64,000 nucleotides of DNA from Halichondria panicea. Lineage: Eukaryota; Porifera; Demospongiae; Suberitida; Halichondriidae. The stretch is from contig NC_087384.1 in assembly GCF_963675165.1 (NCBI RefSeq), positions 3,176,315 to 3,240,314 of the forward strand. The letters run 5' to 3'. The notes under the pieces are model-generated. The model worked only from the letters and a program-made list of their open reading frames with translations, had not been told where the DNA came from and did not search any database. Both the position numbers and the translations under genes were made by a program. This document shows, piece after piece, positions 5,812 through 49,631 of the stretch (within the stretch, counting starts at the first letter, position 1; every line of letters starts with the position of its first letter).

Positions 5812-6092
5812 CCATAATAATTATTATACTAGCTGGTAACACGCACGTGTTTATCCCTTCTCATAGTACTATACGACATTACGTGTGTGTTCAATCGATC
5901 TTGTCACTAGCATTTAATACCATGACTGTACTGTTACATGTACCTATATATTACAATGTAAAAACGAAAATACTAATTTTATGTTCTCCCTCAGGTTTAC
6001 TGTCATAAACCACTGTACACTGTACATTAACTATTGCGATAATTATTATAATTCACGTACAAAAACATTCAGTTTAAGGTTTATCATTGTTG
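5812..6092. other. Intergenic, convergent 3' ends
   Basis: AT-rich spacer between the stop of the citron-like gene (+) and the stop of the small membrane protein gene (-). It holds several AATTATTAT-type stretches but no recognisable gene. A homologous copy follows the duplicated citron exon near 39527-39798. Confidence 0.6.
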
Positions 6093-11354: not shown

Positions 11355-12254
11355 GCATGGACTCTGGACTGGACTGGACTGTGGACTGGACTGTGCATGT
11401 GGCCGGGCAATGCTAGCGCTTTTATAGCTAGCTAGCCGGCTTTAGCCATATTGCTTGCTGTACGTTACAAATCCTGAAGGTGCCAGACAAATTAACAAGC
11501 AGTAAGCAAGCCTACCATTTCACCCTCAGTGTCCCTATTAAATATCAGTGTCCCTATATGCTACTCTGCCATAATTACTCTACCCCTAAAATGCACACAT
11601 TGATACTAAACATTAAGAACAAAAATTCACAGGAGTAACTGTGCTGCTGCTGAGTTTTAACATTTTTAACGCCAGGTGGAACAAACTTGCCAGGATGACA
11701 AACTGCTGTGATGGAGGATATAGATCTAATTATAGTGGTAGTGTGCTGTTGGCTCTAGACCTTTATTTAGGTTTGCTCGAGTGTCTGTAAGGCCTTCTTT
11801 CAAATCGTACTATTGCCAGTGTATAGAGGCAATGGTATAGGAGTTCCTCTTGCAGCCTTGACACACTGTACTAAGAATGAATTGCAGGTGTTACAGGCTG
11901 GTATACGGTACTGGTGGTGCTCCTTGCGTACTCTCGGTGCGGTGCTAGTAGTGGTGTGTACGTGTGCTCGTAGAAGATTCTGTGTGGTGAAAACTGCCCA
12001 GGAGCAAAATTATGAATAGGCCTAGAAGCTAAGATGGCTCAAACTATTTGAGGGGTATGGCAGAGTAGCGTATAAGACATTGCCAGGGGATATTAGGGAC
12101 ACTGAGGGTGAAATGGTAGGCTTGCTTACTGCTTGTTGATTTATCTGGCAGCTTACAGTACAGCAAGCAATGGCTAGCTACATTGCCCACATGCACAGTC
12201 TCTAGTCTAGTCCAGTCCAGTCCAGTCCAGAGTCCATGTTTTGCACTATACCCA
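11342..12254. mobile_element. Foldback transposon interrupting copy A
   Basis: Long inverted arms (about 11342-11570 and 12047-12254) share the CATGGACTCTGG and CAGTGTCCCTA stretches and a GGACT tandem. Direct repeats flank the element: GTATTGACAG at 11332-11341 and again at 12255-12264. Copies B and C have a single uninterrupted GTATTGACAG followed by AAACAAATTGG, i.e. the empty site. The 9-10 bp duplication suits Mutator-like or foldback elements. No transposase is visible in the roughly 480-bp centre. Confidence 0.85.
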
Positions 12255-18265: not shown

Positions 18266-21200
18266 GAGGACGAAGTTGACAAATGCCTAGAAGACCTGCT
18301 TGTGACAATGGACTCAGAACAGTTAAAATCATTGGCTCTCAGTGTTCCTCGTAGAGACAAGAAAAGTCTGGTAAACCTTACCATTAACCCAGCAAGTGCT
18401 ATAGAAACTGGTAGTGAAAAAAATATCGCATAGTGCTTATAAATCAATCCAGTGTGTTGGATAGCTTTATATCCCGTTGCTACGTTGTTGCCAAGTGCAT
18501 AATTCACTAACCACAAAGTCATGCACTAACCGCAAAACGCCCCTCTTACCATTAACTTTTTTCCACTTCCAGTTCAAATGAAAATTAAACAACATCCCCA
18601 GGATATGCTTACTAAAGTTGGTGAGGATGCCAAATTCTTCATTGCTGTGACTGCGTCTTCTCCTGGGCAGATCTCTTACAACTGGTGCTTTAACAATCAG
18701 AGTGTATCAGATTACAATGCTGACTACAAGGGAGCAACAACAAGTGAACTAGTCGTTTTGAAGTCCTTGTCCAAGCACTGTGGTAGCTACAAGTGTATTG
18801 TCACACATCAATTTTCTTCAGATGTGCAAGTCCCTTCATTTTCGGCTGTCCTTGAAATTGGTATTATAGATATAATATATTATATACCGTATATCGTAGA
18901 GTTTTTTCATATGTATGTTCCATTAATTAAACGAACAAATTATGCAATAGGTTCTACGTCACCATTCTGAACAGTTATGGTTCATACGAAATTTTCATCA
19001 AAAAATTGTCCACTATGGTAATATTAACCCCCTAACCCTAACCTTACAGTATTTATAGTCAAATCTATAGAATTCTCATTGAATGTACAGATGGAACCAA
19101 AATTGAAGTCGAGGAGTCTAATCTCCTTGGAATAATTTTACAGAACTTGACTTCACTGCAAGATGATGAACTGGATTTAAATATTAAGGAGCTACTCAGT
19201 GGAACAAGTAATCTGACTTACGAGGAGCTACAAATAGTTCTTGGTCAGACCACACATACATCGTATTTATCAACTGGTCTGAAACAGAAGCTGAAAACAC
19301 GTAAGCAATATAACGTCATTCATCCTGCACTCTATTAAAGTTATTGCTATTCAAGCAATTCATTTATTTGTTTTCAGGGATACAGGAGGATAAAATCTAT
19401 GATGAAGCAATAAAAAATGATAAAAAGATTAAATTGTTCTATCTCAAAATGCTTGCTCTTGGACCAGGACAAATAGGAAAATCAACATTTATCCGTAGAC
19501 TTCTTGGAATCATGCAATGGGATATCGATGAAGATCCTGAAAATGGACCAACTAGAAGCACTGGCCAGTCTGAATGTAGAGAAGTATTCTTAGGCTACAA
19601 TCATGAATCAGTAGCTCTGTCAACTGAACAAAGCTGGCATGTACTTGGTGAATCAGACATAGGTAAGGAATTGAGAGCACTCATTTCCCTATTAAATATT
19701 CAGACTGAAGCCAAAACACTTAATGAAACGGTTGCTCCAGAAGAAACAAAGGTGATTCCTCAAGCGTCGCTTCAACAAAGTGATTCATCTGATTCTAATG
19801 TGATCCCAACAAATAAAACAAAATCTGAAAATAACTCTGTTGCTGTAACAACTAATACTTGTCCATCTTCCGAGCAGTCCCCCGACACTCCAAAAGCTCA
19901 AACAAAATCTCAAAGAAGCGAGATCGACGAAGCATATGAAGAGTTTGAAAAGCTACGCTATTCTAAGCATTACACATCGAGTGATTCCCCCGATGATGAT
20001 ATAAAGTCAATACATGCTATAATCAACATCGCGGATGTTGGTGGTCAACCGGCTTTCTTAGAATTGCTACCATCCTTGACAATTGGACCAGCAATGTACC
20101 TTGTATTCATGAAACTTCTATGGGAATTGGATGTTCCAAAGGAGTCGCTATACAAAGGCGAAAACGAGATGGAAGCTTTAGTCTGTAAAAACTACACATA
20201 TACACCAGAAGAAGTTATTTTCACTGCTCTCTCCAGTATTGCATGCTTTGGTCACTCTGACAAGGAGGTAGAGAAGTATTTATCTTCTGACCAGGATGCT
20301 AAATCGGATGCCAATAAGAAGAAGATCAGCTCACTTGCATTGATTATGGGAACCTATGCAGATGAACTACAATCTGGTGGTGAGACAGCTACTGAACAAG
20401 TAAAAGAAACCAATCAGCAACTTCGTGCAACGCTGGACACTACCCCTTTCTACGAGGATGGCCTTATCAACTATTCTAATTTAATAAAAAAAGAAGTTCT
20501 CTTTCAAATTAATAATAAGTCTGGGGGCAAACCTGAAGTTGATAACTATAGAAAACTTATTAAAAAGCTTATTGAAAGCAGATTCCGTCAGTACACAATC
20601 CCAGCAAGGTGGTTGATGTTTAGTATTTGCTTGAAAATTCTTGCTCAGAAAAAGAAGAAGAGTGTTATAGAATTTCCAGACTGTGTTAAAGTTGGTGATT
20701 GCTTTAAAATGAATGAGAAGACAGTAAAATGTGCTCTAACATTCCTTCACAAATACATCGGGTTAGTGATGTACTTTCAGAAGGAGGAAAAGCTCAAACT
20801 TTCAAAGGATATCGTCATCTGTGATCCTCAAGCAGTTTTCACTTCTATTAGTGACCTTATTTTTAATATTTATGATCCAAACAAACGGAATGTAAAAGCA
20901 CCTGTGTTCGATCGCTTCACACAAAAGGGTTTCTTTTCTCCTGAAGATCACACCATGATGGAGGCTATCACTGCTAAAAAAAACCACTTTCCCATTGAAG
21001 ACCTGATACCGTTGTTGGAGTATCTAAACATCGCTGTTCCAATGGTTATGGATTCAATCTCTGGGTATTTTCTTCCAGCAGTTCTTCAAACAGCCACTAG
21101 TGAGGTATTGAATACGACTCTCGAAGGAGCAGATCCTGATCGAGATCCAGAGCCCCTTTGTGTCCGTTTTAAAACTAGTTTTGTGCCATTGGGATTTGTT

Positions 21201-24200
21201 TCTGCCCTTGTAGCTAATTTATTAAATGATAACAACAAGGATTTGCTTTTACTTGGGAAAGAGCAAGATAAAGTTGTGTACAAAAACAAAATCACATTTC
21301 GATTTCGAGGGCGTTACAATATTGTGCTGATTTCCCGGGCCAAGTATTGTGAATTTCGAGTATCTCGACCCCCAGGTGCTGTTGAAGATGAAGAGTTCAG
21401 CAGCACCAACTGTTGCCCACTGCTTAAAGACATGTTACAGAAATCAATCAAGAATGTAATCGACAGAATGCGACAGAGTTCTCTATTCCAGCTGTCACAT
21501 GGCTATGATTTTGCTTTTAAATGCCCTCAAAGCAACTGTAAGGAAACAATGGGTAGCAGATCATCATTAGTAGTAATTAATCCAGCAGACCTTAAAAGCC
21601 TGACTTGCGAGAGCTGCAAGATTGCTATACATGCAACCCTTCAAATGAAGACATGGTTCACAAAGGTGAGTTATAATTGTGTACCTCTAAGTATGAATGC
21701 AGCTGTAATAGTCTATGTATATGGCCAGCAAAAACAGGAGTTTAAAAATAATAATCTATATACCATGCACCTTTGCTCTTATTTCTTTTACGCATGCCCA
21801 CAATAGCAGGACCTATACTGTATAGTGGATGTATTATGTGGGTACCGTATATCTTCTAATTTATCGGACAGCAAAAAATAATTATTTTGGAAATTGTCTG
21901 GGTATAATTGGAACAGATTTTATACAGCATGCGAAGTGTCCAGAACAAGCAAGCAGCTGCATGCGAGCTAGCTAAGTTTAATAGAACAGTGTGCGACTGA
22001 ATAGTTGCACTAGCTATCTAAAACTAGCTACTTAAAGCTATCTAACTGCAGCACTCTAAGTTTTGTCTTACTTGCCGTCTGTGATCGTGAATGGTGAATG
22101 TAACTCAAAGTATTGTCTGGATATTTAGAACAAAAAGCAACTGGAGTGTCCGTTGTATTAGAACAACGAAAATTGCCCAAAAGAGTGTCCGGGGTAATTA
22201 GAAGTGTCCGATAAATTAGAAGATATACTGCATATACATTTTCGTGGAAAAACGGCATGTTAGCCTAATTTTGGCGGAATAATAGCCGCTTTGCAGCATG
22301 CATGCATGCATATGCATGTGATAAAATTTGTGAGTATAAAATGCTTGCTTTCAGTGAAAACATTTATACCCTCAAAATATACCCACTGCATGTACGGTGT
22401 TTTACTACTCCCATTTCCCCTCATGCACATGCAGGACCTAGCCCATGATATTATTGATGATCAAAAGGTGAATAGTCCTTTCCACACAACGGTATATAGA
22501 AGGAATTTAATTGGCTTTTCCCAGTCTGGGACGGAAGTGCTGCTGTCACGCCCACTTTTACTATCAACTGTGCACATGAAAATGATCATTTTAGTTGCAA
22601 CTGCATTCTGTATAGCCTCGATTCCAGGCCGATTAAAATACGTATTTTAATCGGCCTTGAATCGAGGCTACATTCTGTACTGCCATGTGCTTGTGCAAGA
22701 GTGATTGTTAGCAAGCGCTCAGGAGAGAAGCTACAGCCCACAGAAAACAAGCAGGTAAGACAGTAAATCCAACAGTGATTTTTTTGCAACAAATCCTGCC
22801 TATACGTACCTTACCTTACTGCATACTGTTACTGTAGCTATACAGACAGTATTACTGCAAGTTGCCACTCTTGTTTTGTTCACTGAAGGTTGGATTTACT
22901 GTCATAACTGCTTGTTTTCTGTGGGCTGTAGTTCCTCTCCTGAGCGCTTGCTAACAATCACTCATGCATCATTTAATTACGGTGGCCCTGAGTGCTACTC
23001 CTAGTTGACAGTTCATACTTGATAGTTCAAATGCCTAGTTTGTAGTTCGCAGTTGCTACTTGATAGTTCAACCGCGTAGTTGGTAGTTCGCAGTTGCTAC
23101 TTGATAGTTCAAATGCCTAGTTGGTAGTTCGCAGTTGCTAGTTGGCAGTTGGCAGTTGGTAGTTAGCAGTTGGGAGTTGGGAGTTTGTGACCTTTAAACT
23201 TCGCAACGAACTAATGCCAGGAATTATTCTCTAAGCCTTCATTGATGGGGGCAAGCCCTACTTAATGTACATTGTATAGTGGACACACGTTAGTGCCGTC
23301 TGAGGCCAGTAAACTTAAAAGACTACATTTTCTACGCCAGTTAGCAAATATATAGATCTTTTCACTGCCTCTAATCTTTTAACTATAACTTTAAATGGCC
23401 TCAATAGAATCTAAGAACCTGTTATAATCCTTCCCCCCCCTACCAGGAATATAGGTGCATAGGGATTAGACTTGAAATTACCTCCCTACCTAGAATGATG
23501 TACATAATTATAATAATTATGAAGATTAATATTGCCGTTACGAACTGCCAACTCCCAACTGCCAACTAGCAACTGCCAACTAGCAACTAGGAGTAGCACT
23601 CAGGGCCACCGTATTTAACAGCTAAAACTTCAATTTTGCATGCAGTCTTGCATAAATAGATCAAGCACATGGCAGTACAGAATGCGGTTGCAACTGAAGT
23701 GATCATTTTCATGAACATTTGATAGTAAAATGGGCGTGGCAGCAGCACTTCCGTCCCCTGCATGCAGGTCCAATATAAATTACATGTTCATATAATGATG
23801 TGTATAGGATCCACGAACTACCAGTCTCAATGAGTTGATGGTCAAGTATGAAGTCACTGATGAGCAGTTGGATCGAGAGATTGAACAAGACGACCTTGTT
23901 CCAGTAGCTATGCACTTTGATAATGTGGAGCTCTACCTCAACCCACTGAAGTTGACTGGCAATGAACAAGTTGACGTGAAGAGAGATGCTTGTGCTAAAG
24001 GCAATGAAATAGCAGTTATCAACTGTTTGTCAATTTGGAGGGGACACGAACCCAGCGAAGCAACCTTCAGAGTACTGATTAGTATCTTATGGGATCTGAG
24101 GAAGGAAAAAATTGCTACCAACATTTGTCAGTACTTGAAAAAAAAAGGTATTTACTTTGCACTGTGTGTACAGTATTGTGTTACTGCATGCAGCATTTCA

Positions 24201-34604: not shown

Positions 34605-35881
34605 TCTGGATTTTGCTGAGTTAGCAATAAAACCAAACCTATGGGGAAGATCCTAGTCTCGTGGACCAGCCGATATATTATCGTCTGGCAAATTACACAT
34701 TAGCTACTTTGTGCAGCGGTCTGTGGCTGTTTGCATTGATAAGTGGTTAGTGGTTGGAGGACGGATGTGTGAAACCACATAATCAAATCTATTTTAGCTA
34801 GCACTCCTAGCAGTGCAGACTTACTACAAACACTTAGAGCGCCACGATATTATTATTGACGTAGTCTAGATCATGATCGATTGTGGAACCAAAAGAAATA
34901 TCATAACATGACTTGTTGAGAAGTCTGGATAATGCTACAGTTCCTTAAATTCCTACAGTTGGTACCTTAATTTGGATAGAAGTATGGCTTATCGAGACAG
35001 TGTACAGCCTCAGTATTCCCAGGCCGCTCAGGAAAGCTCGAGTACTGATTATGAGCACGAGAGCACTGATCATTGCCAACAACAACATACCATAATTATC
35101 ACCAAGAGATTGAGAGTGGCAGCTTAACCCCACAAGTTCTCACCATCCTACTCAAGTAAGCTCGAGTGATACCACTGTCATTGAGAGAACATAAATTGCA
35201 TTTGGTACTTGCACAACACATTCTGCCTGGAATCAGAATATGACTGTCTACAACAATGAGGTAAAGAGATATGAGGTAAAGAGTTATGACATCGGACAGC
35301 CAGCAGGTTATGCTATACTCTTGGGCAATGATCGCGAATGCCCAGCAGATCCTGGAGTGTTACCAGTCATGAAAGATCTCGGACTTATGAGTGACGTATT
35401 ACATAGCTGTGGGTGGAAAGTTAGCCCGATTGCCAGCCACCCTGGTATGACCTCGAAGCAGTTTGATGCTATGTTCAATCCATCTGATTTTGATCAGTAC
35501 TCTTGCTTCATGTTCCACTACACCGGCCATGGGAATTCCAAAGGCTTGCTACTGAGTGATGGCTGCTGTAAGCCTTATGTCGACATTGTACAGAGTGTCT
35601 CCTTAATCCGTTCTCTAGTAGGAAAACCGAAGTCTTGAATTAAAGGTTACTCCCGTGGTAATTATGGAAGCTGTTACACTTTCACCTTGTGGCTAAGCTA
35701 AGGCAGTTTTGGAATACACTCACTTTCACTGAGATTGTTACGCTCGTGCATGGCTGGACGGTTCAACTAGCTGAACAGTGGGGGGGAACAACAGCCTGTA
35801 GTGTACAATGCTCTGAACCGCCTACTGATGTCAATATTTCTGAACGTACCCAGGATGTGACATGTCCAGAAAATGTTCCAT
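34605..35881 (+). pseudogene. Copy B caspase exon, broken
   Basis: Homology to copies A and C begins near 34605 in the promoter and includes the ATG at 34984. An extra T after ACTGAT (about 35048) shifts the frame in the N-terminal region. The p20 region is open from about 35240 (HYTGHG retained), but about 150 bp is deleted at 35636. This removes the FIFDSCRS segment with the catalytic Cys and brings a stop at 35636-35638. The exon donor (GGTGGTAAG in A and C) is also gone, and the following 39-bp exon is shortened and lacks its donor. Promoter DNA at 34651-34905 carries about 250 bp not found in copy C. Confidence 0.8.
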
Positions 35882-37144
35882 AGGGCATATATATACACAA
35901 TAGGTACCGTATAGCGGGACATTTTTTTGAGGGTGCTATTCGACTCCGCAAAAATGTTTGTGGGTTTGCGTTTTAATGCCAGGAAACCACACCCGCCAAT
36001 AGATTTGCATGTGAACCAGTGCATGGGAGTTTATCCCAGCAACTGCTTTGCCCCAAAAACGTGAAATTTTACACCTCATGAACATTTCCCGCTATAATTA
36101 TGCAGTAATAATTATAATTATAACGGACACCATTGGGAACAAGGTCTTGGCCCTTACAGGGAGGTGTCTGTAGTTGAGGGGTTTTAATTATAATTCTTCG
36201 AGTCAATTCGTCTTCTAGTGAACCTTGGACTTCTTTAAATGCTCTCTATAGGTCTTGAAAAGGCTGCGGAGGCAAACAGATCCTCACACAGTCCCAAATT
36301 CGGGAAGGGCACTCATGCAGTTACTGGCACACACTCGTACATGTATCTCAGTAATAATGTTTTGCTTGTCCAAAATGTGGCTGACGGTTAGGGAGTTAGT
36401 TTCTATTGAAAAAGCTGATCTGAAGGCAGAAAGCTGGTCGTTATATGGAATAGCGACCGTTTGTCAGGCATAGTTTTTACGGTAGTACCAAGAGCGTATG
36501 CATGCAACTACAATCTATCAAATTATAAATGGGAGGGGCGTGTGCACTAAAAATAGATTGCACGTGCACTTATTCCATAATAGTCACCAAGCCAGCTAGC
36601 TAGCTAGCACTGTACTGTTGGGTAGAGTTAGCCACAAAGGTCAACAAGCGGAATTAGAGAAGCGGAAGAGAAGCTAGACTAGAAGTAGCCATTGATCAAT
36701 TCTAAGCTCTTCTAAATTAATTTTGCGGTAAATTTCTAGTATAACAGTGTTCACGCCCACTATCACGCCTATTTACGTGTGGGCGGTTGGCTAAATATAC
36801 TATATCCTGCTGACTTATCAGAATTTTGACGGTATACATTGCGAGTTACATGCCCTCTTCTCTTCATACGCCCTTGGTAGTACACATGGCTGAAATTGGG
36901 ACATTATCCATATTGGTCATTATTCAGGGGTGGGGTCGGCCGTTAAATAGGGTTCCACTGTATGTATGTGTGCGTGCGTTCTATAACTGCATGCTCCACA
37001 GTTGCAATACAGCTTTCGCACTAGAGCGTTTGCTACAGCAGCCAAATAAAAGAGCCATTAATTGTACGTACTACGTACAGTTCTATCCTTTCAAGATGTT
37101 TCTATCCATATGTCACTTGTTGATTATTGTTTTCATTTGGATAG

Positions 37145-37440
37145 CTCATTATCCGAGGCCGTGCCGTGGCCAGCGGGTATAGTAGTCAGTCAGTCTGTCC
37201 GTCTGTCTGTCTGTGTATTCTGAGTGTACTCACCTGGATGCGATAGCATTGTGTTTGTGCCATGGATAGCCTCGAAACAATAAGGTAGTAGTTTTAAATT
37301 TGGCAGATTTTGATGTTAAAGATTCGTTGTCGAATGAAAGCGAGCAAAAGCTAAAAAGCTTGAAGTTACACGTGGGCAGCTAGCTAACAACAACACGCGG
37401 CCTTTATTCGAGGCATCCTACGTATTTATAGCATCTTGTC
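37145..37440. repeat. Dispersed repeat, copy 2, in copy B intron
   Basis: Match to 33241-33490, starting with ATTATCCGAGGC and a GTCTGTCTGTCT microsatellite and ending CCTACGTATTTATAGC. Interrupts sequence that is continuous in the same intron of copy C around 44430-44480. Confidence 0.65.
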
Positions 37441-37615
37441 GCTACAATAGAAAGCTGTTTCTGTAAGCATGACTCTCAGTCTGGGTCCTTCTCCAGGAGC
37501 CATACTTCTCTGAGTAGAACACTTTCATAATTTTGTTCACTACTGTGTCATGAATATCTAGAATCAGTACTGCATTTTGCCTATATAATTATGTTCACTA
37601 TAATCTTACATTCAG

Positions 37616-38989
37616 TACCCGACAACAAGTCGACACAGAGGACAAGTTTCTCGTATCCCAGCCCGCTCCTTAAGGGGAAAGGACCGAATTCTCTCGAAAG
37701 TGACGGTAAAATTTATACCGTAACTTTTCCACGCAATTATAATGTATGACGTTTTGCTCTGAAGTACATACCATGTACTTCTATTTTCCTGAAGCATCTT
37801 TAGGGTTTGTGCTTTGTTTCTATTTATAGTGGCCACAGATGCTATCGGAAAAGGTCGACTCCTTAGTGTCCAGTTCAAAACCAAGCAAGACGTTATCAAC
37901 AACCTTCCGAGACTCGGCCAAGGTGTGAGTGTGTTCGTCTGCTATGCTCCAGACCCAGAATCCCCATACTATGATCCCAAAGAACGAAAAGATGAAATTG
38001 TTCACAACCAGAGTCAGATCACTCACTTGATTAGTGACTTGGATCGTGTTGGTTTCTCAGTCATCTCTGATCTCCATTTTGGCAACTCCCAACCGAGTAA
38101 CTGGCTTCAGTGGTACGTGTCTCACATAGAGCTATGTGACTACCTCATCATGGTCTGTTCACCTGCGTTCAAAGAGCTGTTCTCTTGTGACAAGCAAAAG
38201 TTTCCAATCGCAGATGAGCGTGCCTCTTGGTTTCTTACTTACCGTGATGTCATGTATGCGGAGATTTCTGAGGAGGTGAAGGATTCACCCACTGGCAGTA
38301 AATTTGTACCTGTGATCATTGATGACTCGTTCCCACCACAAGACTGCGTACCTACTCTACTGTTGACAGCCACTACGTATCAGCTCGACCAGAAAGTTCC
38401 TCGAGAGTTCAAGTATGGCAACATGTATGGAGGATTCGAGCAGCTCGTTTGTCGAATGGCTGGTATTGACAGAAACAAATTGGATGCACCTAAAAACATT
38501 CCAACAAAACCACCGAAAGGATACAAGCGAGTTCCGTGGGTACCAGAAGCACTTGCTACTAAACAACAACCACAATCCCATCCACCTCCTGCAAAACGAG
38601 TGGTATCCCCAGAACCCTTCCAACCCGCTCATGTCGCACCATTCTCACAACCCCCACACCACCCACCGCCCTCACAGCCGGATCAACTCCCAGACAAGCC
38701 CCCAGAACACACGGTGATACTCTGGCTATGTGACAAAATCACAGACTGGAGGTTTGTCGCTCATTTTCTAAAGATAGATAACTCCGAGATTGAACGAATC
38801 GGTATTGATTATCATGATTGTGTGATGGAGCAAAGGTACCAGATGTTTGAGTCATGGAAGAGACACGAGTGGAGGGAGTATACCTACCGCACACTGGGGG
38901 ACGTTTTGTTGAAGACTGAGTCTAACAGACATCTCTATCCTGAGTTCTGTCGGAGGGTTGAACAAATTGAACAAACTGAACCAAACTAA
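37616..38989 (+). CDS. SEFIR-death domain half of copy B, still open
   Basis: Exon 37616-37705 (PDNKSTQRTSFSYPSP...; phase 1 both ends) and exon 37830-38989 are open to the natural stop. The large exon holds SEFIR (VFVCYAPD...MAGIDRNKL), a proline-rich linker (PPPAKRVVSPEPFQP) and a death domain (VILWLCDKITDWRFVAHFLK...WREYTYRTLGDVLL). The SEFIR and death parts are one exon here, whereas copy C has an intron between them. With the caspase part broken, either this is a pseudogene decaying from its 5' end or it is expressed from a downstream start as a SEFIR-death adaptor. No good ATG/promoter for the shorter form is evident. Confidence 0.6.
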
Positions 38990-39130
38990 CCCTACTATTT
39001 TATAGACTGCCACTTTATACTTTAGTATTGTTCCCTAGTTACACATCGTTGTCTTCTTGCTCACTTAAATTGTTTCTTATAGTCTGTTCTAGATCTTACC
39101 ATTAATTTTTAGGATTAGTAACCTCCTCCA

Positions 39131-39526
39131 CTATACCACATCCTCACTGCAATCACTGAGAGAAACGAACTTTTTCGATACTCCAAGAAGCAGCTCACCT
39201 GTGCTTTCGGTCTAAGGAAGTACTCTAATAACAATCTAGATCAACAAAAAGTGATATTTCTGGCTCCTTCACTTCAGAATAAAATAGAGTGGGTAGAAGC
39301 AATTGGTGAAGTGTTGTCAGCCCTCACTTGGATACGGGAGCAGCTAGTGTATGGCGATGCTGACGATGGGAAAGTTGTGGTCACTCAAGGCTGTCTCCAT
39401 TGTCCCGTTTGTGAAGACTTCTCGTCGGAGTGGAGATGGAGTGTCAGTTGGTGGCAGTGAACTGGATATGTCCATTCGATCATCTATGCTGAACGATAGT
39501 GAACCTAGTTTAGAAAGTGTTGTATA
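39131..39526 (+). pseudogene. Duplicated fragment of the last citron exon
   Basis: About 97% like 5408-5811, beginning mid-PH (HILTAITERNELF). Compared with the source exon, 14 bp between two GTCAC repeats are lost at 39384, so the frame shifts after KVVVT. The upstream end joins sequence that matches the 3' flank of copy C near ACCTCCTCC, marking a tandem-duplication junction. Confidence 0.85.
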
Positions 39527-39798
39527 ATTATTATCCTAGCCAGTAACATGCATGTGTTTATCCCTTCTCATAGTACTATACAAAGTTAAGTTTGTGTTCA
39601 ATCGATCTTGTCACTAGCATTTAATGACTGTACTGTTACATGTAACTTTTACAATGTAATATAATTTTATGTTTTCCCTATTTATGGCCTCGTGGTTAGA
39701 GGTTTACTGTCATAAACCACTGTACACTGTACATTAACTATGCAATAATTATTATAATTCACGTACAAAAACATTCAGTTTATGGTTTGTCAATGTTG

Positions 39799-42456
39799 TC
39801 ATGTGACCTCGTATTTCCTTGGTCTAGGTAGAGGGGCATACACACACACTGCCAAAACCAGCATCGCCACCACTGTTCCACCAACCACTCCAACAGTCAG
39901 CCCTGATATCATGAAGAGAACAATTAACATTAATCCAAATGTTCACAGGTGGTACATGCACATTAATTTTTGTCAACATTGTTGTACTAATCAATGCCTG
40001 GAAACCACACCCACCAATTAAGCATGTGAACAGTACATATATAGGAGTTTTCGCATTACTATAGCTGCTCTACCAACATTTTGCACAGTTCTTGCTATAA
40101 AATTAATTATTATACGATACATAATTTATATACGTTGTCAAGGTAACAAGGGTGTAATAAAAGTCATACAGTTCCTTCCGCATTATTATACCATTAACAA
40201 AAACATTAATGTAAAAATTGACAGGGAAACCATGCACAACTAACTATCGAAACAAGTCCCTCGAGAGCCATACATTAATCGACATGTTATACATGTATTA
40301 TGCACAGCTAAATAATTTCTATAATTAAATAAAAATTAACGTATCGATCATTGGCAATTAATTATATCAAGGAACGAGAACCCATGCATGCATTGGTCAG
40401 TTTATAGGATTGGCATGAGGCTAATCGCAGGTAACAAGATCGAGCTATAGGGTAGAGGGGGCTTAGAAATGCATTGGATCGAGGGTCTGCAACAAATTTG
40501 TTGGGGACTTAATTGGCACTTCTATTCTAGGTAGCACTATACATGTAATTAGAAGAACGGCGGTAGTAATCAATTAAGGCTTTATGTAGCCTTGTGGAAT
40601 GGCTACTTTTACTTTACGTTCTCGCACTAGCTAAGTGCCCTCCAATATAAGCGCCAAACTGGTTTTCTCTTGTTCTTTGGCGCTGTAATTGTATAGTATA
40701 GCGAAACAGTTACAGCCAGATAGCGTTTGTGAGCCCACTTTAGCAACTTGGACAGAAAATTATTTTAGAGGAGTTCTGTCTGTGCAGTGCATTTGAGTAT
40801 TAAGTTGAGTCACAATCATGATAGAGAATTATGGAGACGAATATAGCTAGCCAAGTTTTGTTGTAAAACACTGTACTTGTGCCTATACAATGAAACAAAG
40901 CAGCTTACTAAAGAGCAGGCCTTCTCTTCAGGCTAGGTATGTGTGTGTGTGTGTGTGATAAACATCCAGCATTAAAACACGTGATTTTAGGTGGAAGGAT
41001 TTAGTCTGTCATCCCCCAATTTCCCCCAGTCAACATGGGGGTTTTGAGCCCCAAGCAATATTGGACACATCAAAACAGGTAGTAAAAGCAGTCTATATAA
41101 ATACGCAAGGCAAATTCCCAGTGCGAGGCCAACATTTCAAGTCAAATTCCCTATATGTCATTGATAGGTGCATAATAGCTATTGGCTTATTCCGAGCGAA
41201 GCGAGGCTATAATCGGGTCACGTTGAGATTTTGGCGAAGAAAAAAAAAAAGGACAACGTAGGACTCAATGGAACTAGTGGCTCTGGTTGCTGCAGACCGT
41301 AACGGTTTGACTTCAAAGTTGGAGGACGCGTTAGCCACTGTACTGAGGACACTTTCAGCTCCATTCTACAGCTCAGAAGGCCTTTTTTCAAGCGTTCTGC
41401 TCATAAGCTAGACAATGCTTCTTAAATTGACGATTTGTGACATTTTGATCATTACCTAGATCTATTCTTTTCTGCAATCTGAACATGAAACCAAATATCA
41501 GTGCTTGTGCTGAGATTATTTTTCTTAGTAAGTCTGTTATATACCACGTACAGTACAACATAGTAAAGTGCCTCTCCAGTAGATTAAAAATTGTACTGTC
41601 AGAGTATTTTGTGGTGAGTATTCTGTTTCCATGTCAGCAAATGGTTCGTCCGTAACTAAACTTGACAACATTGACGATGTTGACGAATGTCTAACCGAAT
41701 CTAATGAACTTTCACTCATGGGTGCTACCGTCATTGCTGTCAATGTCAAGAAGTTCGAAAAGTTCAATGCTTGCACTTACTGTATTAAAAGGTAAAGTTA
41801 AAGTCGTTGAAGATGACATCGTTGAATGCTCAAAATGTGGTGCAACACTCCTACTGTCTCGTTGCCCTTTTAATCAGATGGCTAAACTGGACTTGGAAGG
41901 GCCAGACCCCACGTTTGTTACGGTTGTTGTTTACAACGATTTAATCAAAGCCATTGTCGAACAAGATCAGCAAACTACTACTTCCCTCCTGAAAGCTAAA
42001 CCGTTCGATATTACATACAATCAATACCATGTAGCTACAAGTGTCTCTCGGCGACGTTGACACCAGGATCAAGCTACAACTATTAACATTTATTTTTCCT
42101 ATGTGCTGTTTCAACAATTTATTACTCAAAAGCCTTACCTATGAATTAGCCTGATCCCAAGACAATTAAAAAGGCCTTGGATTCGAGGCTAATAGTGCGT
42201 AGCGAGGTTGCACTCCAGTGTATCCCTGGTTATATAATAGACTCTACAATGTACGCCCTTGATAAAATAAATGGTCGATCTACAGAGTCTTCTACCCAAA
42301 CTTAACAAACATCTTACCTGGTTGTATTGGTCCCAGAAAATCTAGTGGTGAGAATGCTTTTTCAGGGTTTGGTATCAAATCATCACTTTGAGCTGGCTGA
42401 CATGACAGTAGGGTCAGGACAAGGACAACAGAGGAAAACAGGAGAGTTGTTGTCAT
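39799..42456 (-). CDS. Tiny type I membrane protein, copy C
   Basis: Exon 42456-42318 (signal peptide, ending FLGPIQPG, donor GTAAGA) and exon 39902-39799 (GLTVGVVGGTVVAMLVLAVC, tail APLPRPRKYEVT, stop) are near-identical to copy A. The splice sites and phase 1 are kept. Differences include a Gly/Ser change after the signal peptide and a Val/Ala change in the membrane segment; both frames stay open. The intron is about 0.55 kb longer net than in copy A, mainly because of an insertion at about 41190-42225. Function unknown. The conserved short basic/proline tail could be a sorting or binding motif. Confidence 0.55.
41190..42225. mobile_element. Insertion present in copy C spacer, absent from copy A
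   Basis: Copy A reads GGCTTATTATAATAGACTC without interruption (7971 onward). Here GGCTTATT is followed by about 1 kb and then GGTTATATAATAGACTC, suggesting a TTAT-type target repeat. The insert carries a zinc-ribbon ORF relic and ends next to a TAGCCT/AGGCTA palindrome (42147-42193). The element class is not clear. Confidence 0.6.
41631..42060 (+). pseudogene. RPA1 C-terminus-like zinc-ribbon fragment, frameshifted
   Basis: From ATG 41631: MSANGSSVTKLDNIDDVDEC... to CTYCIKR then TAA; shifting one frame restores GKVKVVEDDIVECSKCGATL...RCPFNQ...PDPTFVTVVVYNDLIKAI, to a stop at 42060. The two CxxC pairs followed by an OB-like strand pattern recall the C-terminal zinc-ribbon/OB fold of replication protein A and RPA-like proteins in transposons. 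The frameshift at about 41791 would need an unseen intron or marks decay. Confidence 0.4.
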
Positions 42457-42651: not shown

Positions 42652-45600
42652 ATGGCTTATCGAGACAGTGTACAGCCTCAGTATTCCCAGGCCGCTCAGG
42701 AAAGCTCGAGTACTGATATGAGCACAAGAGAACTGATCATTGCTAACAACAGACCACATCCCCAAGAGAGTGGCAGCTCTGTGCCCATGGATATTAATCC
42801 CACAAGTTCTCACCATCCTACTCAAGTAAGCTCGAGTGATACCACTGTTATTGAGAGGCCACAAATTGTATTTGGTAGCACAACACATTCTGTCTGGTAT
42901 CAGAATATGACTGTCTACAACAACGAGGCGAATAGATATGACGAGTATAACATGCATTATGACATCGGACGGCCGCCAGGTTATGCCGTACTCTTGGGCA
43001 ATGATCGCGAATACCCGGCAGATCCTGACTTGTTACCGGTCATGAAAGATCTCGGACTTATGAATGACGTATTACATAGCTGTGGGTGGAAAGTTAGCCC
43101 GATTGCCGGCCACCCTGATATGACCTTGAAGCAGTTTGATGCTATGTTCAATCCAATCCTTTTTTCTGATTTTGATCAGTACTCTTGCTTCATGTTCTAC
43201 TACACCGGCCATGGGAATTCCAAAGGCTTGCTACTGAGTGATGGCTGCTGTAAGCCTTATGTCGACATTGTACGAAGAGTCTCCTTAATTGATTCTCTAG
43301 TAGGAAAACCAAAGATTTTCATCTTTGATAGCTGCCGCTCTGAAAAAGAAAAATCTCATCATTGGAATTTCTTTAAGGGAATCACCAAAGCTCATGCCGA
43401 AAATGTATCTGTGAACTATCCACCTTCCGACACACTCATTTGCTATTCAGCCAATGAAGGTATGAAAGGTTTCTCCCATGACGATAATGGGAGCTTTTAC
43501 ACTATGAACCTGGCCACTAAGCTAAGGCAGTTCTGGAATACACTCACTTTCACTGAGATTGTCACGCTTGTGCATGGCTGGACGGTTCAACTAGCTCAAC
43601 AGTGGGGGAAAGAACAACAGCCTGTGGTGTACAATGCTCTCAACCGCCTACTGATGTTTGGTGGTAAGTGTGTTTTGTCTTATGGACATGGCATGTCAAT
43701 ATTTCTTAACGTACCCAGGATGTGACGTGTCCCAGTACTCACAGAAAATGTTCCATGGTAAGTTTCGTTTCTATAGGGCGTAGATGTACATAATATGTAC
43801 CGTATAACGGGAAGTTTTTGCGGATATAATTTATAACAGACACCATTGGGGGGAACAAGGTATTGGCCGTTACAGAGAGGTGTCTGGTTAATTATAATTA
43901 TGGATCATCCACATGTATGCTTTGAGTCAATTCATCTTTTAGCGAACCTTGGACTGAACTAAATGCTTCTTTAGGTCTTGAAAATACTGCAGAGGCAAGC
44001 ATATCTTTACACCTACATGTAATTCACATTAGTTTTCTGCTTGTAAAATGTAGCTGACGGTTAGGGAGTTAGTTAATTTCTATTGAAAAAGCTGATTAGA
44101 GGGCAGAAAGCTGGTCGTTATACGGAATAGCAAGGTGGTTTTTCCGTTTGTCAGGCATAGTTTTTACGGTATGGCTGAACTCGGGACCTTAGCTTTTGGC
44201 CGTATTGATCATTATTCAGGGGTGGGGTCGGCCGTTAAATGGGGTTCCACTATATGTATGTGTGCGTGCATTCTATAACTGCATGCTCAACAGTAACATA
44301 ATTAGGCATCTAGCTGACATTGAGTAAAGCTTGAGTTGTGGAGGCAGTTGCAGTTTCTTCTAGAGCGTTTGCTACTTTAGCCAAATGAAAGAGCCATTGT
44401 ACATGTACGTATCTATCCTTTCAAGATGTTTCTATCCATGTCACTTGTTGATTATTGTTTCCACTGGGATGCTACGTACCAATTAAACCACACACTAGAG
44501 CTCATCCTGTACTAGCTATAGCAAAACCTAAAACACTTTATAATTTTGTTCACTAGTGTGTCTGCATATCTATAGATATATTCAGTACCAACAATTCATT
44601 TTGCCTTTATGTTCACTATAATCTTTATACATTCAGTACCCAACAACCCGTCGACTCAGAGGTCAAGTTTCTCGTATATTGTTAAGGGAAAAGGACCGAA
44701 TTCTCTCGAAAGTGATGGTAAAATTTGATACCGTAACTCTTTCAATGCAATATTATAATGTATGACGTTTTGCTCTGAAGTACGTACATGTACTTTTAGC
44801 TTTTCCAGAAGCATCTTTAGGTTTGTGGTTTGTTTCTATATAGTGGCCACAGATGCTATCCGGAAAGATCGACTCCTTAGTGCCCAGTTCAAAACCAAGC
44901 AAGATGTCACCAACAACCTTCCGAGACTCGGCCAAGGTGTGAGTGTGTTCGTCTGCTATGCTCCAGACCCAGAATCCCCATACTATGATCCCAAAGAACG
45001 AAAAGATGAAATTGTCCGCAACCAGACTCAGATAACTCTCTTGATTCGTGACTTGGAACGTATTGGTTTCTCAGTCATCTCTGACCTCCATCTTGGCAAC
45101 TCCCAACCTAGGAACTGGCTTCAGTGGTATGTGTCTCGCATAGAGCTATGTGACTACCTCATCATGGTCTGTTCACCTGCGTTCAAAGAGCTGTTCTCTT
45201 GTGACAAGCAAAAGTTTCCAATTGCAGATGAGCGTGCCTCTTGGTTTCTTACTTATCGTGATGCCATGTATGCAGAGATTTCTGAGGAGGTGAAGGATTC
45301 ACCCACTGGCAGTAAATTTGTACCTGTGATCATTGATGACTCGTTCCCACCACAAGACTGTGTACCTACTCTACTGCTGACAGCCACTAAGTATCAGCTC
45401 GACCAGAAAGTTCCTCGAGAGTTCAAGTATGACAACATGTATGGAGGATTCGAGCAGCTCGTTTGTCGAATGGCTGGTATTGACAGAAACAAATTGGATG
45501 CACCTGTTGATCAAGGGATACATCAACTAGCAGCTCCTTACAGGCATGGTCAGTTGTTAATGCTGTCGCTGTGTTATAGCATGTACCGACTTCCTTAAGT

Positions 45601-46185
45601 CACAATCGTAATTTGTTATATGCCACAGGCACTAATAATTATTACATGTATGTGCCATCCCTCCTCCATGCAGGTAAGCGGCCTGTTAAAAACATTCCAA
45701 CAAAACCACCGAAAGGATACAAGCGAGTTCCGTGGGTACCAGAAGCACCTGCTACTAAACCACAACCACAATCCCATCCACCTCCTGCAAAACGAGTGGT
45801 ATCCCCAGAACCCTTCCAACCCGCTCATGTCGCACCATTCTCACAACCCCCACACCACCCACCACCCTCACAGCCGGAGCAACTCCCAGACAAGCCCCCA
45901 GAACACACGGTGATACTCTGGCTATGTGAGAAAATCACAGACTGGAGATTTGTCGCTCGTTTTCTAAAGATGGATAACTCCGAGATTGAACGAATCGGTA
46001 TTGATCACCGTGATGGTGTGATGGAGCAAAGGTATCAGATGTTTGAGTCATGGAAGAGACACGAGTGGAGGGAGTATACCTACCGCACACTGGGGGACGT
46101 TTTGTTGAAGACTGAGTCTAACAGACATCTCTACCCTGAGTTCTGCCGGAAGGTTGAACAAATTGAAAAAACTGAACCGAACTAA
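42652..46185 (+). CDS. Caspase - SEFIR - death domain protein, copy C (intact)
   Basis: Exons 42652-43663, 43719-43757, 44637-44717, 44844-45548 and 45674-46185 give 782 residues; every intron is phase 1. Residues 1-100 are Ser/Thr/Gln-rich. A caspase-fold protease follows (GYAVLLGNDREYPAD; YYTGHG with His187; FIFDSCRS with Cys228; a p10-like part SDTLICYSANEG...YNALNRLLMF). The TGHG/DSC pair is metacaspase/paracaspase-like. SEFIR is at about 410-600 (VFVCYAPD, LQWYVSRIELCDYLIMVCSP), the domain of IL-17 receptors and Act1. A Pro-rich linker (613-690) and a death domain (VILWLCEKITDWRFVARFLK...WREYTYRTLG) end the protein. No signal peptide or membrane span, so cytosolic. Inference: a self-contained death-fold signalling protease. 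The donor at 45548 (GTCAGT) is weak. Confidence 0.8.
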
Positions 46186-46667: not shown

Positions 46668-49401
46668 CTAAGTTTCATCTTCAATGTCTTTGTAGTCCCA
46701 CAGCGAATGCTCCTCCTTTCCAACCTCTGTTACGTAATACCCTTGACCGAGGAAACAGTACCGAAAAAAGGCCACCATCTTTTTAATGCCCACTACCTGT
46801 GCAGTGATTTCCTCCACATAATCCATGAACAGCACGTCTTTCACCTCGGGCTCTAGTGCTTCAAAATGGTTGCCAATCAAAACCATGTCCAGTTTAGCGT
46901 CACCGTGAACATGCACACAAGTGGGGATCTTATTGGGCACAGTTCCCACACAAATTAGAGGGTCGTCTTCTTGAAGGAGAAAGAGGTGGGCAAGAGGGGA
47001 GAATCGGGTATGGACGAGCTTGGTAAAAAAGCTTGTGGTTTCCTTGACACCGTAGAGGTGGTGGATCATCATGTCCAGATACAGCCGTAGCACAAACATC
47101 TGACCTATAAAATGGTTGATGATCTATGTGTACAGTACATTAACTATAAGAAAGTAACACGTACTGTACAGGCAAAGACTCACCTCGTGGATCCTTGATG
47201 AGATCAAACTTGTGGTCATGCTGATAGATGGCATTCATGTGATCATAAACGTTGTAGTCATGTGACCAGGTCGACAATGAAACAGACGGGCTGAGTGTCT
47301 CTACGTAATGCCAGGTGTATGGGGGCACGTACAGCATATCTCCAGGGCCGAGCTCAATCTGAACCGCCTTGGCTTTTGTGAAAACAGGAAATTTCTGTGT
47401 GTCGACATCTTTATAGTTAACCTGTGACTTATGCCACATAGGGTGTATTCTTGGATACGTGTACATTAGCTCGTGTTGAAAAGTGTTCCATAGAGTGAAG
47501 CGTTTCTTACCCACCAGCTGAACAAATAAGTTAAAGTCCTGGTCAAAGTGTGTGTGTGTAATCATTCCGGAAGATGAAATCCAAATAAATTGCCTGTTTG
47601 ATTTGTAGTCCTTTTCCGAATTATAGAGGAATCGGTCTGGCAGTAAATCTTTCTTGAGTTTGGCAGGTACTGATCCAAAGTAGTAGTGGCCTAGAAAACT
47701 ATCAGCACACTTAGTATCTAGGTTGACACAGCTAAAGAATTCTTCTCGTGTCATATTTCTTGTAGTATATGGAATAGAGATGTTTAGTTTGAGCGGAGTA
47801 CGTCTGTCTGGATCAAAGGTCAAATATGTACTGGTACATTTCACTGACTCTAACATGTCGAGTCCAAAATTGTCCGATATGTAAGACCAGTTCCATTTCT
47901 GCAAGGCAGGCCAAGAATGGACAACAGTGTTTCGTAAAACTAAAGGTTCTTTACGTCCAATAATTTCTTGAGCTATTGCACGATTTGGATTCCACTGAAG
48001 AACTTTAGGTTTACCCGTGATCGTAGGAGTTACCTTAGGGAGGGAACGAGTCTCAGAATAAATGCTTAGTTTTTCTTCAGGAAGCTTAGTTGAGATGTAG
48101 CGATTATCAATCACAAGAGCCAAGTCTTCGTGATTTGCCGAGAAAGTAGTTGAGATAGGGAAACGATCAACAAACAGTTCATCATGATCACCACTTCGAT
48201 TATTGGAATCTTTGTTCACCCAGCCATGAATAGGTGAACAGTAGCATTTGTGGCATTTCAAGTGAGTGTGACAACTGTTTTTAAATGTGGGGTAGATTTG
48301 GAAATGGCCTGAGATTGCTGGAATTAGCCCGTGTACACATTCTTGTCTCTTCAAATCTTTCCAGGTCAGCGTTTTTGACAGGATACCATTTGACAAAAAA
48401 TGAGCTTGTAGTGTGTTTCCTTGAGCACTGTCACTCCCCAGTAGAGCCTTTAATGTGGCAGCCTTGTTAAAGTGAGAGCAATCTCCATAGAGAGAGCTTA
48501 GTGAAGGGTCTCCTAGGTTATGAGATGCTGCAGGATTGCTTGCGTCAAATACAAATTGTAAGAAGAGAGGGTTGGATTGAGATGTGGTTGCTTGATTGAC
48601 CAAAATTGACATTAAGTTCGCAATGTTTTTTTTCAAGTCATTGATAGCAATTTTTTCCATTTTAGTCGATTTGGGGCTTTGACCAGCTGTGTACAGATCA
48701 AGAAGAGAAATTATATAGAGGTCTGACGTAGGTCTAAGTTTTAAAGAGGAATTGTTTTTTAGGACTTCAGAGATCAGAGCAAGATTTCTCTTCAAGGATG
48801 TATATTGATACACCTCTTTACTATCAGTTTGTGTTACACCTTCATTTACTGGTAGTTGCGTCAAAAGTGTTTTCGCTTCATTAAATGGGAAAATGCGATT
48901 AAATCCGATTGCTTTAGTCGTATTTGGATCAAATACAGAATACATAACAACTCCGAATCTTACATCATGTGTTTCATTCTGAGACAATTCGATCAGCAAC
49001 TCCAAATGTTCCAACTTCTTCATATTCAGTATCCTGTCAGACTGTTCAATCAAAAACACAATATCCACCAGGCTAGGGGGGTGACTATTGTAGGGTGTGG
49101 GGGATCTCGTACCGTTTCTTGTCGACAACCTCATCTGAGAACAGCTGATAAGGTGTGATACGATGCTATCAGATGACCAGGTGAAATCAGAGGAGTCTGT
49201 TAAAAGTAGAGAAATTGTTTCCATTGTAGTATACTTTGCAGACCTATAATTGAGACATATAGGATGACTGTCCTGAGATAAAAACATAGTGCACTGTTGG
49301 TCGTAATCGCTGATATCGACACACATTGTCGTCCAGAAAGTCAGGACTGCTAACAAGCTCAGACAGGATACAACCGGAAATTGTAGGACCCAAGCAAACA
49401 T
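46668..49401 (-). CDS. Secretory-pathway JmjC-domain protein with vWA-like N-terminus
   Basis: Two exons, 49401-47184 and 47104-46668 (phase 1), give 884 residues. The chosen ATG opens a hydrophobic signal or anchor (PVVSCLSLLAVLTFW). A vWA-like region follows (DIVFLIEQS...FGVVMYSVF...LYIISLLDLY), though its metal motif is not canonical. A Cys-rich stretch with many N-x-S/T sites comes next. The JmjC/cupin-8 domain starts near GRKEPLVLRNTVV and has iron ligands in HFD (His618, Asp620) and PPYTWH (His698), as in 2-oxoglutarate dioxygenases. Ligands look complete, so a hydroxylase in the ER or Golgi is likely; substrate unknown. Upstream in-frame codons to 49530 overlap a MITE and are not taken as coding. 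It converges on copy C and diverges from the coiled-coil gene. Confidence 0.8.
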
Positions 49402-49490
49402 GACTGAAAATGTACCTGTGTGTGGGGGGGGGGTGGATGGGTGGGACTGGTGGAGCGCCGTTTGAGATTCGACTAGAGACATGCATAGTG

Positions 49491-49631
49491 ATACCGTCTT
49501 TCTTCTAATTACAGCGACACTAAAAATCAACTATGATTCTCCAGTGGCGCACAAATAGAGCAAGAAAAAAAGATAATTCCAGTTTGGCACTTATATTAGA
49601 GTGGCGCTGTAATTAGAAGAAAGACGGTATA
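49491..49631. mobile_element. MITE just upstream of the JmjC gene
   Basis: 141 bp with inverted ends ATACCGTCTTTCTTCTAATT and AATTAGAAGAAAGACGGTAT, including a shared CAGCG.CACT. It lies 90 bp upstream of the JmjC ATG and could contribute leader or promoter sequence. Confidence 0.8.

Follow-up and report, generated by a model that had tools for sequence, protein, structure and literature searches.

A predicted protein with caspase-like, SEFIR and death domains encoded in a tandem gene family of the sponge Halichondria panicea

Can the adaptor and the protease of a signalling complex be joined in one and the same animal protein? This question is raised by a gene of the sponge Halichondria panicea, which lies in a stretch of 64,000 nucleotides (nt) on contig NC_087384.1 (positions 3,176,315 to 3,240,314; the whole stretch is hereafter called the window, and its own positions are used throughout). 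An initial annotation of the window had described a chain of exons that connects a caspase-fold protease, a SEFIR domain and a death domain. The focal gene is located at 42652–46185 on the + strand and is referred to as copy C, since three tandem copies are present in the window. On balance, we think it rather probable, if far from certain, that this locus encodes an adaptor-protease, i.e. an adaptor of the SEFIR type that contains its own caspase-like protease, as a one-chain counterpart of the nematode ACTL-1/MALT-1 complex.

Exon structure and domains of the focal gene

The gene model was predicted from the sequence, and the domains were assigned with Pfam on the same basis. Five spliced exons, all with GT/AG boundaries, yield a frame of 782 amino acids without an internal stop codon, and the intron phase is 1 after each of exons 1, 2, 3 and 4. 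The exon chain of the initial annotation is borne out by these canonical splice sites and by the single frame that they produce; the three domains, their order, the His–Cys dyad and the proline-rich linker were all recovered in the spliced frame. The gene comprises the following features:

Exon 1: 42652–43663, + strand; start codon, N-terminal leader of ~109 residues and caspase-like domain (codons 42979–43647)
Catalytic His187: 43210–43212, + strand; codon CAT in exon 1
Asp226, two residues before the catalytic Cys (position Cys-2): 43327–43329, + strand; in exon 1
Catalytic Cys228: 43333–43335, + strand; codon TGC in exon 1
Exon 2: 43719–43757, + strand; 39 nt, phase 1-1, linker
Exon 3: 44637–44717, + strand; 81 nt, phase 1-1, linker
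Exon 4: 44844–45548, + strand; 705 nt, phase 1-1, SEFIR domain (Pfam stretch at codons 45029–45415)
Exon 5: 45674–46185, + strand; proline-rich linker, death domain (Pfam stretch at codons 45931–46116) and stop codon

The N-terminal part of the spliced protein matches Peptidase_C14 (Pfam, E = 1.8e-22, residues 110–332). In a comparison with PDB sequences, the best match of exon 1 was caspase-6 (5.6e-11), and MALT1 was not among the best 60 of its 145 matches at E ≤ 1. At the other end, following a proline-rich linker at about residues 613–700, a death domain was identified at residues 700–760 (1.3e-6; 1.3e-7 for the death exon alone). Against the PDB, the death exon showed weak matches to THO complex subunit 1, TNFR1, RIPK1 and FADD, the best of them at 0.0046. 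An Ig domain was not found in the Pfam scan of the spliced protein at E ≤ 1.

The SEFIR exon alone reaches 26.3 bits (1e-5) and thereby exceeds the Pfam cut-off of 23, which places it in the SEFIR family by score; a weak match to TIR_2 is also present. Furthermore, when the SEFIR-exon alignment was compared with Pfam row by row, 30 of its 32 rows hit SEFIR at E ≤ 0.01, the strongest at 1.9e-9, in line with the SEFIR-type adaptor region that had been proposed initially. The focal SEFIR profile is related to the profile of a second type of SEFIR domain, encoded on contig C4 of the same genome and described below (hhalign 96.3%, 1.8e-9). This C4-type profile reaches two PDB entries at E ≤ 1, both of them IL-17 receptor sequences: IL-17 receptor A at 0.043 and, with 0.16, an IL-17RB/RA chain. 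Profile searches, on which the initial annotation had itself staked its caspase and SEFIR assignments, matched both families.

Three TRAF-like patterns were also run over the whole protein and gave four matches, at residues 14, 427, 568 and 680. The match in the linker (PEQLPD at residue 680) arises in 41 of 2000 shuffled linkers and is only a lead.

Tandem copies and related genes of the genome

All three domains are intact in copy C only. The two other copies and an adjacent repeat are organized as follows:

Copy A: 8379–11354, + strand; intact caspase exon at 8379–9393, exons at 9452–9490 and 10509–10589, SEFIR exon from 10699
Inverted-repeat segment: 11342–12253, no strand; repeats at 11342–11573 and 12056–12253, starting where the similarity between A and C ends
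Copy B: 34984–38989, + strand; broken caspase exon, exon 3 at 37616–37705, fused SEFIR–death exon at 37830–38989

At the protein level, copy A is 89% identical to copy C in the caspase exon and 96% in the SEFIR exon. Its SEFIR frame meets an in-frame stop at 11354, just downstream of the donor-like GGGTAAGT, and no death exon was found for this copy. Judged from its sequence, the donor-like GGGTAAGT makes splicing to another exon possible, and the inverted-repeat segment may represent an insertion that severed the remainder of this copy. In copy B, the caspase exon contains frameshifts, stops and a 141-nt deletion that removes the catalytic Cys, and the first two donors are lost. Its exon 3 carries an in-frame insertion of 9 nt, and SEFIR and death domain are found in one open exon with the frame kept, because a deletion took intron 4 together with adjoining coding sequence. 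Beyond the gene itself, a PH-domain exon region upstream of copy A (5386–6513) has an 86% copy upstream of copy C (39121–40212), so that the duplication unit reached past the gene. By eye, the substitutions between A and C look clustered at caspase residues 271–290, near the substrate-loop region. An assembly artefact was considered as an origin of the copies and dropped in view of three diverged copies with common splice sites.

Copies A and C have the same splice sites as far as the exon 4 acceptor; copy B agrees with them at this acceptor and at the sites of exon 3. Across exons 1–4 (to 45490), a single coding indel (3 nt) separates A from C, as opposed to 19 gap runs in the introns; of these, 14 have a length not divisible by 3 (12 of 16, if four runs at 43831 are counted as one event). 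This speaks for one gene, as do, with moderate constraint only, the ratios of nonsynonymous to synonymous changes given further below. Given these two further copies in the window, the exon chain is more than a chance arrangement. The SEFIR exon is 41–91% identical to its database relatives, and a phase-1 acceptor signature was seen in all 15 of the 29 relatives that could be tested, with Val (12) or Ala (3) at the boundary; the other 14 begin too late. Such residues, whose background frequency is 31%, have a codon starting with G, which is what a phase-1 AG acceptor would give; the related rows do not amount to 15 independent trials. No in-frame ATG precedes the SEFIR exon in its open frame in copies A and B. 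Together with the boundary signature, this makes the SEFIR exon look like a conserved internal exon.

Parts of a corresponding pathway are present elsewhere in the genome. On contig C4 (L049, G000:C4:6484500-6494400), exons for a CARD (3.9e-8), a SEFIR (3.5e-11) and a Death domain (2.1e-5) follow each other in this order on one strand. Phase-1 sites matched by hand fit the transitions from CARD to SEFIR and from SEFIR to Death, and another acceptor of the death exon is out of phase; we regard this predicted gene model as a candidate SEFIR adaptor. Like the focal gene, it has a SEFIR exon followed by a death exon, phase-1 sites around SEFIR and a related SEFIR profile, but it starts with a CARD where the focal gene, likewise a predicted model, has a caspase-like domain. 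Based on the common exon order and the related SEFIR profiles, the focal gene resembles the C4 adaptor with a C14 protease replacing the CARD. That SEFIR and death domain belong together is supported by the single open reading frame (ORF) in copy B and by the order of the exons on C4.

Besides that, an ORF on C9 encodes SEFIR (1.8e-5) preceded by a hydrophobic stretch that looks transmembrane by eye. At locus L050, two neighbouring ORFs (973–2022 and 4100–5209) each show, by eye, a hydrophobic stretch; a SEFIR match is present in the second (1.8e-5), and none at E ≤ 0.1 in the first. An IL17-domain ORF is located on C15 (L048, G000:C15:148836-149066; 2.9e-7), and C16 carries a MALT1-like exon (E = 7.4e-20 against MALT1). 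In PMC8353272, an IL-17 gene was not found in Amphimedon, but one Pfam-deposited Amphimedon IL-17 domain is noted.

Two further elements of the window stand apart from the gene family. Tail to tail with the focal gene, a large ORF on the - strand (46668–49530) contains a Cupin_8/JmjC domain (1.2e-29). At 18530–21806, an Ig I-set exon (1.2e-6) is followed by an ORF of 830 amino acids, which has a P-loop-like start by eye and a weak COR-A match below the cut-off and possibly represents an Ig/Roc-COR protein.

The protease pocket and alternative readings

In caspase-7, Arg87, Gln184 and Arg233 bind the P1 Asp, and the counterparts of these residues in MALT1, Asp365, Asp462 and Glu500, bind Arg (PMC4357240). 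To place the focal protease in this scheme, we used an alignment of 76 C14 domains, consisting of the focal domain, copy A, the database relative P0044 and 73 of the 118 other matches listed, of 1865 in total; this list abounds in ordinary caspases. The His–Cys dyad is kept in 76/76 domains, and the three S1 columns hold Arg, Gln and Arg in 72, 72 and 73 rows, respectively. The focal domain, copy A and P0044 instead carry Leu, Asp and Ser, which in the focal domain are residues 127, 226 and 275. Measured against Asp-specific caspases (C14A), the predicted focal domain shares the fold and the His–Cys dyad and lacks the S1 Arg/Gln/Arg. Its Asp specificity is probably lost, and a basic or neutral P1 residue is the most likely preference to be read from these positions. 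The domain, described in the initial annotation as a caspase-fold protease, is not to be taken for an ordinary caspase, as all three S1 residues for Asp specificity are changed. The QACRG-type motif reads DSCRS in the focal protein; A, C and P0044 alike retain the His, the Gly that follows it and the Cys. At the positions of the acidic MALT1 pocket, the focal domain has Asp at 365 and 462 and Ser at 500, and neither the order of death domain (DD), Ig domains and paracaspase typical of MALT1 nor a sequence kinship with it was found.

Within the genome, 23 of 33 C14 places were aligned (A and C included); the remaining ones were two same-frame duplicates, three places that have no locus and five incomplete exons. 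The residue at Cys-2 is Asp in 12 and Gln in 11 of these domains, and the MALT1-like exon of the genome is among those with Asp. By eye, 6 of the 10 other Asp-type domains (L031-L034, L039, L040) have Glu at the column of caspase-7 Arg233, giving MALT1-like pockets on caspase-like domains; the focal domain has no such Glu. In a comparison of the 23 domains with four named proteins, 19 gave matches, the best of which was to Geodia barretti or Dysidea avara in 14 and to Nematostella in 5 (L028, L031, L032, L034, L039), and to Mytilus in none, as would be expected for a sponge. A quick tree of 30 domains, for which L037 and L043 were also left out and the trait columns were kept in the alignment, separates Asp-type (11) and Gln-type (19) rows on opposite sides of one branch (Shimodaira–Hasegawa-like approximate likelihood ratio test, SH-aLRT, 98). 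The branch of the focal trio measures 3.7 changes per site and comes with a long-branch warning, which makes a placement of the focal caspase among the Asp-at-Cys-2 domains unsafe. As judged from these alignments, the focal C14 domain is strongly diverged and is not assigned to the paracaspases. Elsewhere in the genome, at G000:C11:1829250-1845193, two caspase genes are repeated with identical scores and a shift of 9.7 kb, reflecting a recent tandem duplication or an assembly duplicate.

Several observations weigh against the adaptor-protease reading. In the whole protein, the SEFIR domain scores 22.7 bits (1.3e-4), just below the 23-bit cut-off, and neither the SEFIR exon nor its 32-row profile matches any PDB chain at E ≤ 10. 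The genome-wide six-frame search for the SEFIR family returned the places on C4 and C9 without the SEFIR exons of the window, so that any number of SEFIR domains taken from it is a minimum for the genome. Apart from the focal exon itself, P0044 (90%) is, by percent identity, the only close relative of the focal caspase among the best 120 of 1865 C14 matches. The Asp at the MALT1 Asp365 position (Asp133) says nothing in favour of a MALT1-like pocket, since it occurs in 76/76 rows, and Ser stands at the Glu500 position. Moreover, the frame of exon 1 continues through intron 1, which measures 55 bp in C and 58 bp in A, and reaches its stop in copy C at 43725; the same read-through is found in copy A and P0044, which makes a caspase-only product possible. 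Finally, two of the three copies are damaged and the family may be decaying, and the ratios of nonsynonymous to synonymous changes (dN/dS) show moderate constraint only: 0.51 for exon 1 (A/C), 0.28 (A/C), 0.37 (B/C) and 0.52 (A/B) for exon 4, and 0.43 for exon 5 (B/C), obtained as Nei–Gojobori counts with gap and stop codons skipped, between recent duplicates that may have exchanged sequence.

Some of these points would also fit other explanations of the locus. The open tail of ~20 codons behind exon 1, with its like in copy A and P0044, would be expected if two genes adjoin each other here, namely a single-exon caspase-like gene that reads through intron 1 and, apart from it, a SEFIR–death adaptor gene that starts with a first exon of its own; copies A and B indeed illustrate that either half can persist without the other. 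We nevertheless hold two genes to be improbable, since consensus phase-1 donors and acceptors link the parts, the sole A[AT]TAAA signal in 43663–44843 (at 44482) lies more than 750 bp beyond the stop, and the SEFIR exon combines the lack of an in-frame ATG in A and B with the acceptor signature of its relatives; we infer a single transcript. The missing death exon of A, the non-working caspase exon of B and dN/dS values of 0.28–0.52, which are only moderately low, could likewise be signs of a decaying, lineage-specific tandem family of recent duplicates under weak constraint, none of them of importance. This seems unlikely for a family whose focal copy is intact across 782 codons, whose coding part was spared indels relative to the introns and whose SEFIR exon belongs to a group reaching from 41 to 91% identity among database relatives. 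There is also a low probability that the fusion is real and its C14 domain a scaffold or pseudoprotease, which oligomerises without cutting. The very long tree branch, the replaced S1 residues and the change of the QACRG-type motif to DSCRS could be understood in this way, but the unchanged His, Cys and Gly in A, C and P0044 argue against it, as does the Asp at Cys-2, a residue that further C14 domains of the genome, including the MALT1-like exon, have as well.

Proposed mechanism and comparison with known systems

According to the adaptor-protease reading, the protein would act in the cytoplasm, where its SEFIR domain would bind to the tail of a receptor with a SEFIR domain, for which the genome has an ORF with a hydrophobic stretch ahead of SEFIR. 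The C-terminal death domain, together with the proline-rich linker, would bring in additional death-fold proteins and keep the chain in an oligomer. Clustering would then crowd the N-terminal caspase-like domains and lead to proximity activation, for which no separate caspase or CARD adaptor would be needed, and the protease pocket would refuse Asp, with basic or neutral P1 residues perhaps preferred. An activation of the protease by SEFIR/death clustering, which the initial annotation had suggested for SEFIR oligomerisation, is plausible, and the protein presumably has an immune role. The working likeness, a SEFIR adaptor coupled to a caspase-fold protease, appears better supported by the sequence comparisons than membership in any family, which is weaker because both the S1 pocket of Asp-specific caspases and the MALT1 architecture are missing. 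More tentatively, the gene may be a one-chain IL-17R signalosome, in which phase-1 exon shuffling among sponges provided a SEFIR–death adaptor with a non-Asp caspase-like protease, although we consider this far-reaching version rather doubtful.

If that version is true, it would show that the coupling of SEFIR adaptors to caspase-fold proteases was used more than once or predates bilaterians. A natural fusion of SEFIR–death and caspase fold in an earlier-branching animal would represent independent evidence for one shared pathway, in a sponge lineage where IL-17 itself is in doubt. In addition, the gene would offer a simple test system, with receptor clustering and proteolysis in a single chain and a caspase-like pocket without the Asp-binding residues.

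Within the sensitivity set by its two peptide patterns, a scan of prokaryote genome contigs with the SEFIR profile yielded no confirmed relative, and the same holds for SEFIR- and caspase-profile scans of viral contigs with two patterns each. A gain from bacteria was dropped based on the prokaryote scan at this sensitivity, and the parallel to bacterial TIR-type and caspase-like pairs drawn in the initial annotation is not needed. A full-length protein search among 4391 candidates of 0.55–1.75 times the query length gave no match at E ≤ 0.001; single-exon ORFs fall outside its scope, and it is thus not evidence of absence. The initial statement that no animal protein with this domain order had been described agrees with the open-licence literature, where none was seen among the matches listed in titles, abstract starts and passages. 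An unpublicised annotation of such a protein may exist. For example, one (text) or two (table) SEFIR genes are given for Dysidea avara in PMC12909245, and a like gene could already be annotated there. Judged by this literature, the caspase–SEFIR–death architecture appears to be new, while hybrid immune genes as a kind are already known.

Such hybrids were described in amphioxus, with death-caspase, TNFR-caspase and LRR-caspase proteins, some of them confirmed by cDNA (PMC2575513). They are similar to the focal protein in that a caspase is fused directly to an immune or death-signalling module. However, the TNFR- and LRR-caspases keep QACXG, which the focal protein does not, and PMC2575513 does not mention SEFIR (0 occurrences). 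In MALT1 of type 1, the paracaspase domain shares its chain with a death domain and with Ig-like domains (PMC7190641); type 2 paracaspases, made up of nothing but the paracaspase domain, are described for early-branching animals, sponges among them (PMC5978004). Type 1 MALT1 and the focal protein both combine a caspase fold and a death domain in one chain and have Asp two residues before the catalytic Cys. In contrast to the focal protein, type 1 MALT1 has no SEFIR, an N-terminal death domain and Ig domains; the focal protein has no Ig match and Ser at the Glu500 position, and its protease is overall closer in sequence to caspases than to MALT1. As MALT1 and the amphioxus death-caspase carry both domains in one chain, the initial premise that it normally takes an adaptor to bring caspases and death domains together has to be given up.

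On the adaptor side, a MyD88-like SEFIR-DD protein is reported from placozoans (PMC6321704). It is likewise a SEFIR and death adaptor of an early animal, but differs from the focal protein in that no protease domain is mentioned in the passages on it. Act1 (CIKS) has a death domain in most non-amniote lineages, and the Caenorhabditis elegans SEFIR adaptor ACTL-1 recruits the MALT-1 paracaspase (PMC7190641). These systems share with the focal protein a SEFIR and death adaptor and, in the same complex, a caspase-fold protease. The order of Act1 is written DD-SEFIR in PMC7190641, whereas the focal protein has SEFIR-DD, and MALT-1 of the nematode complex is a MALT1 paracaspase with Ig domains, unlike the focal protease. 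The ACTL-1/MALT-1 complex is the nearest functional parallel found: its adaptor and protease are separate proteins in the nematode, and the corresponding parts are merged in the sponge in one predicted chain.

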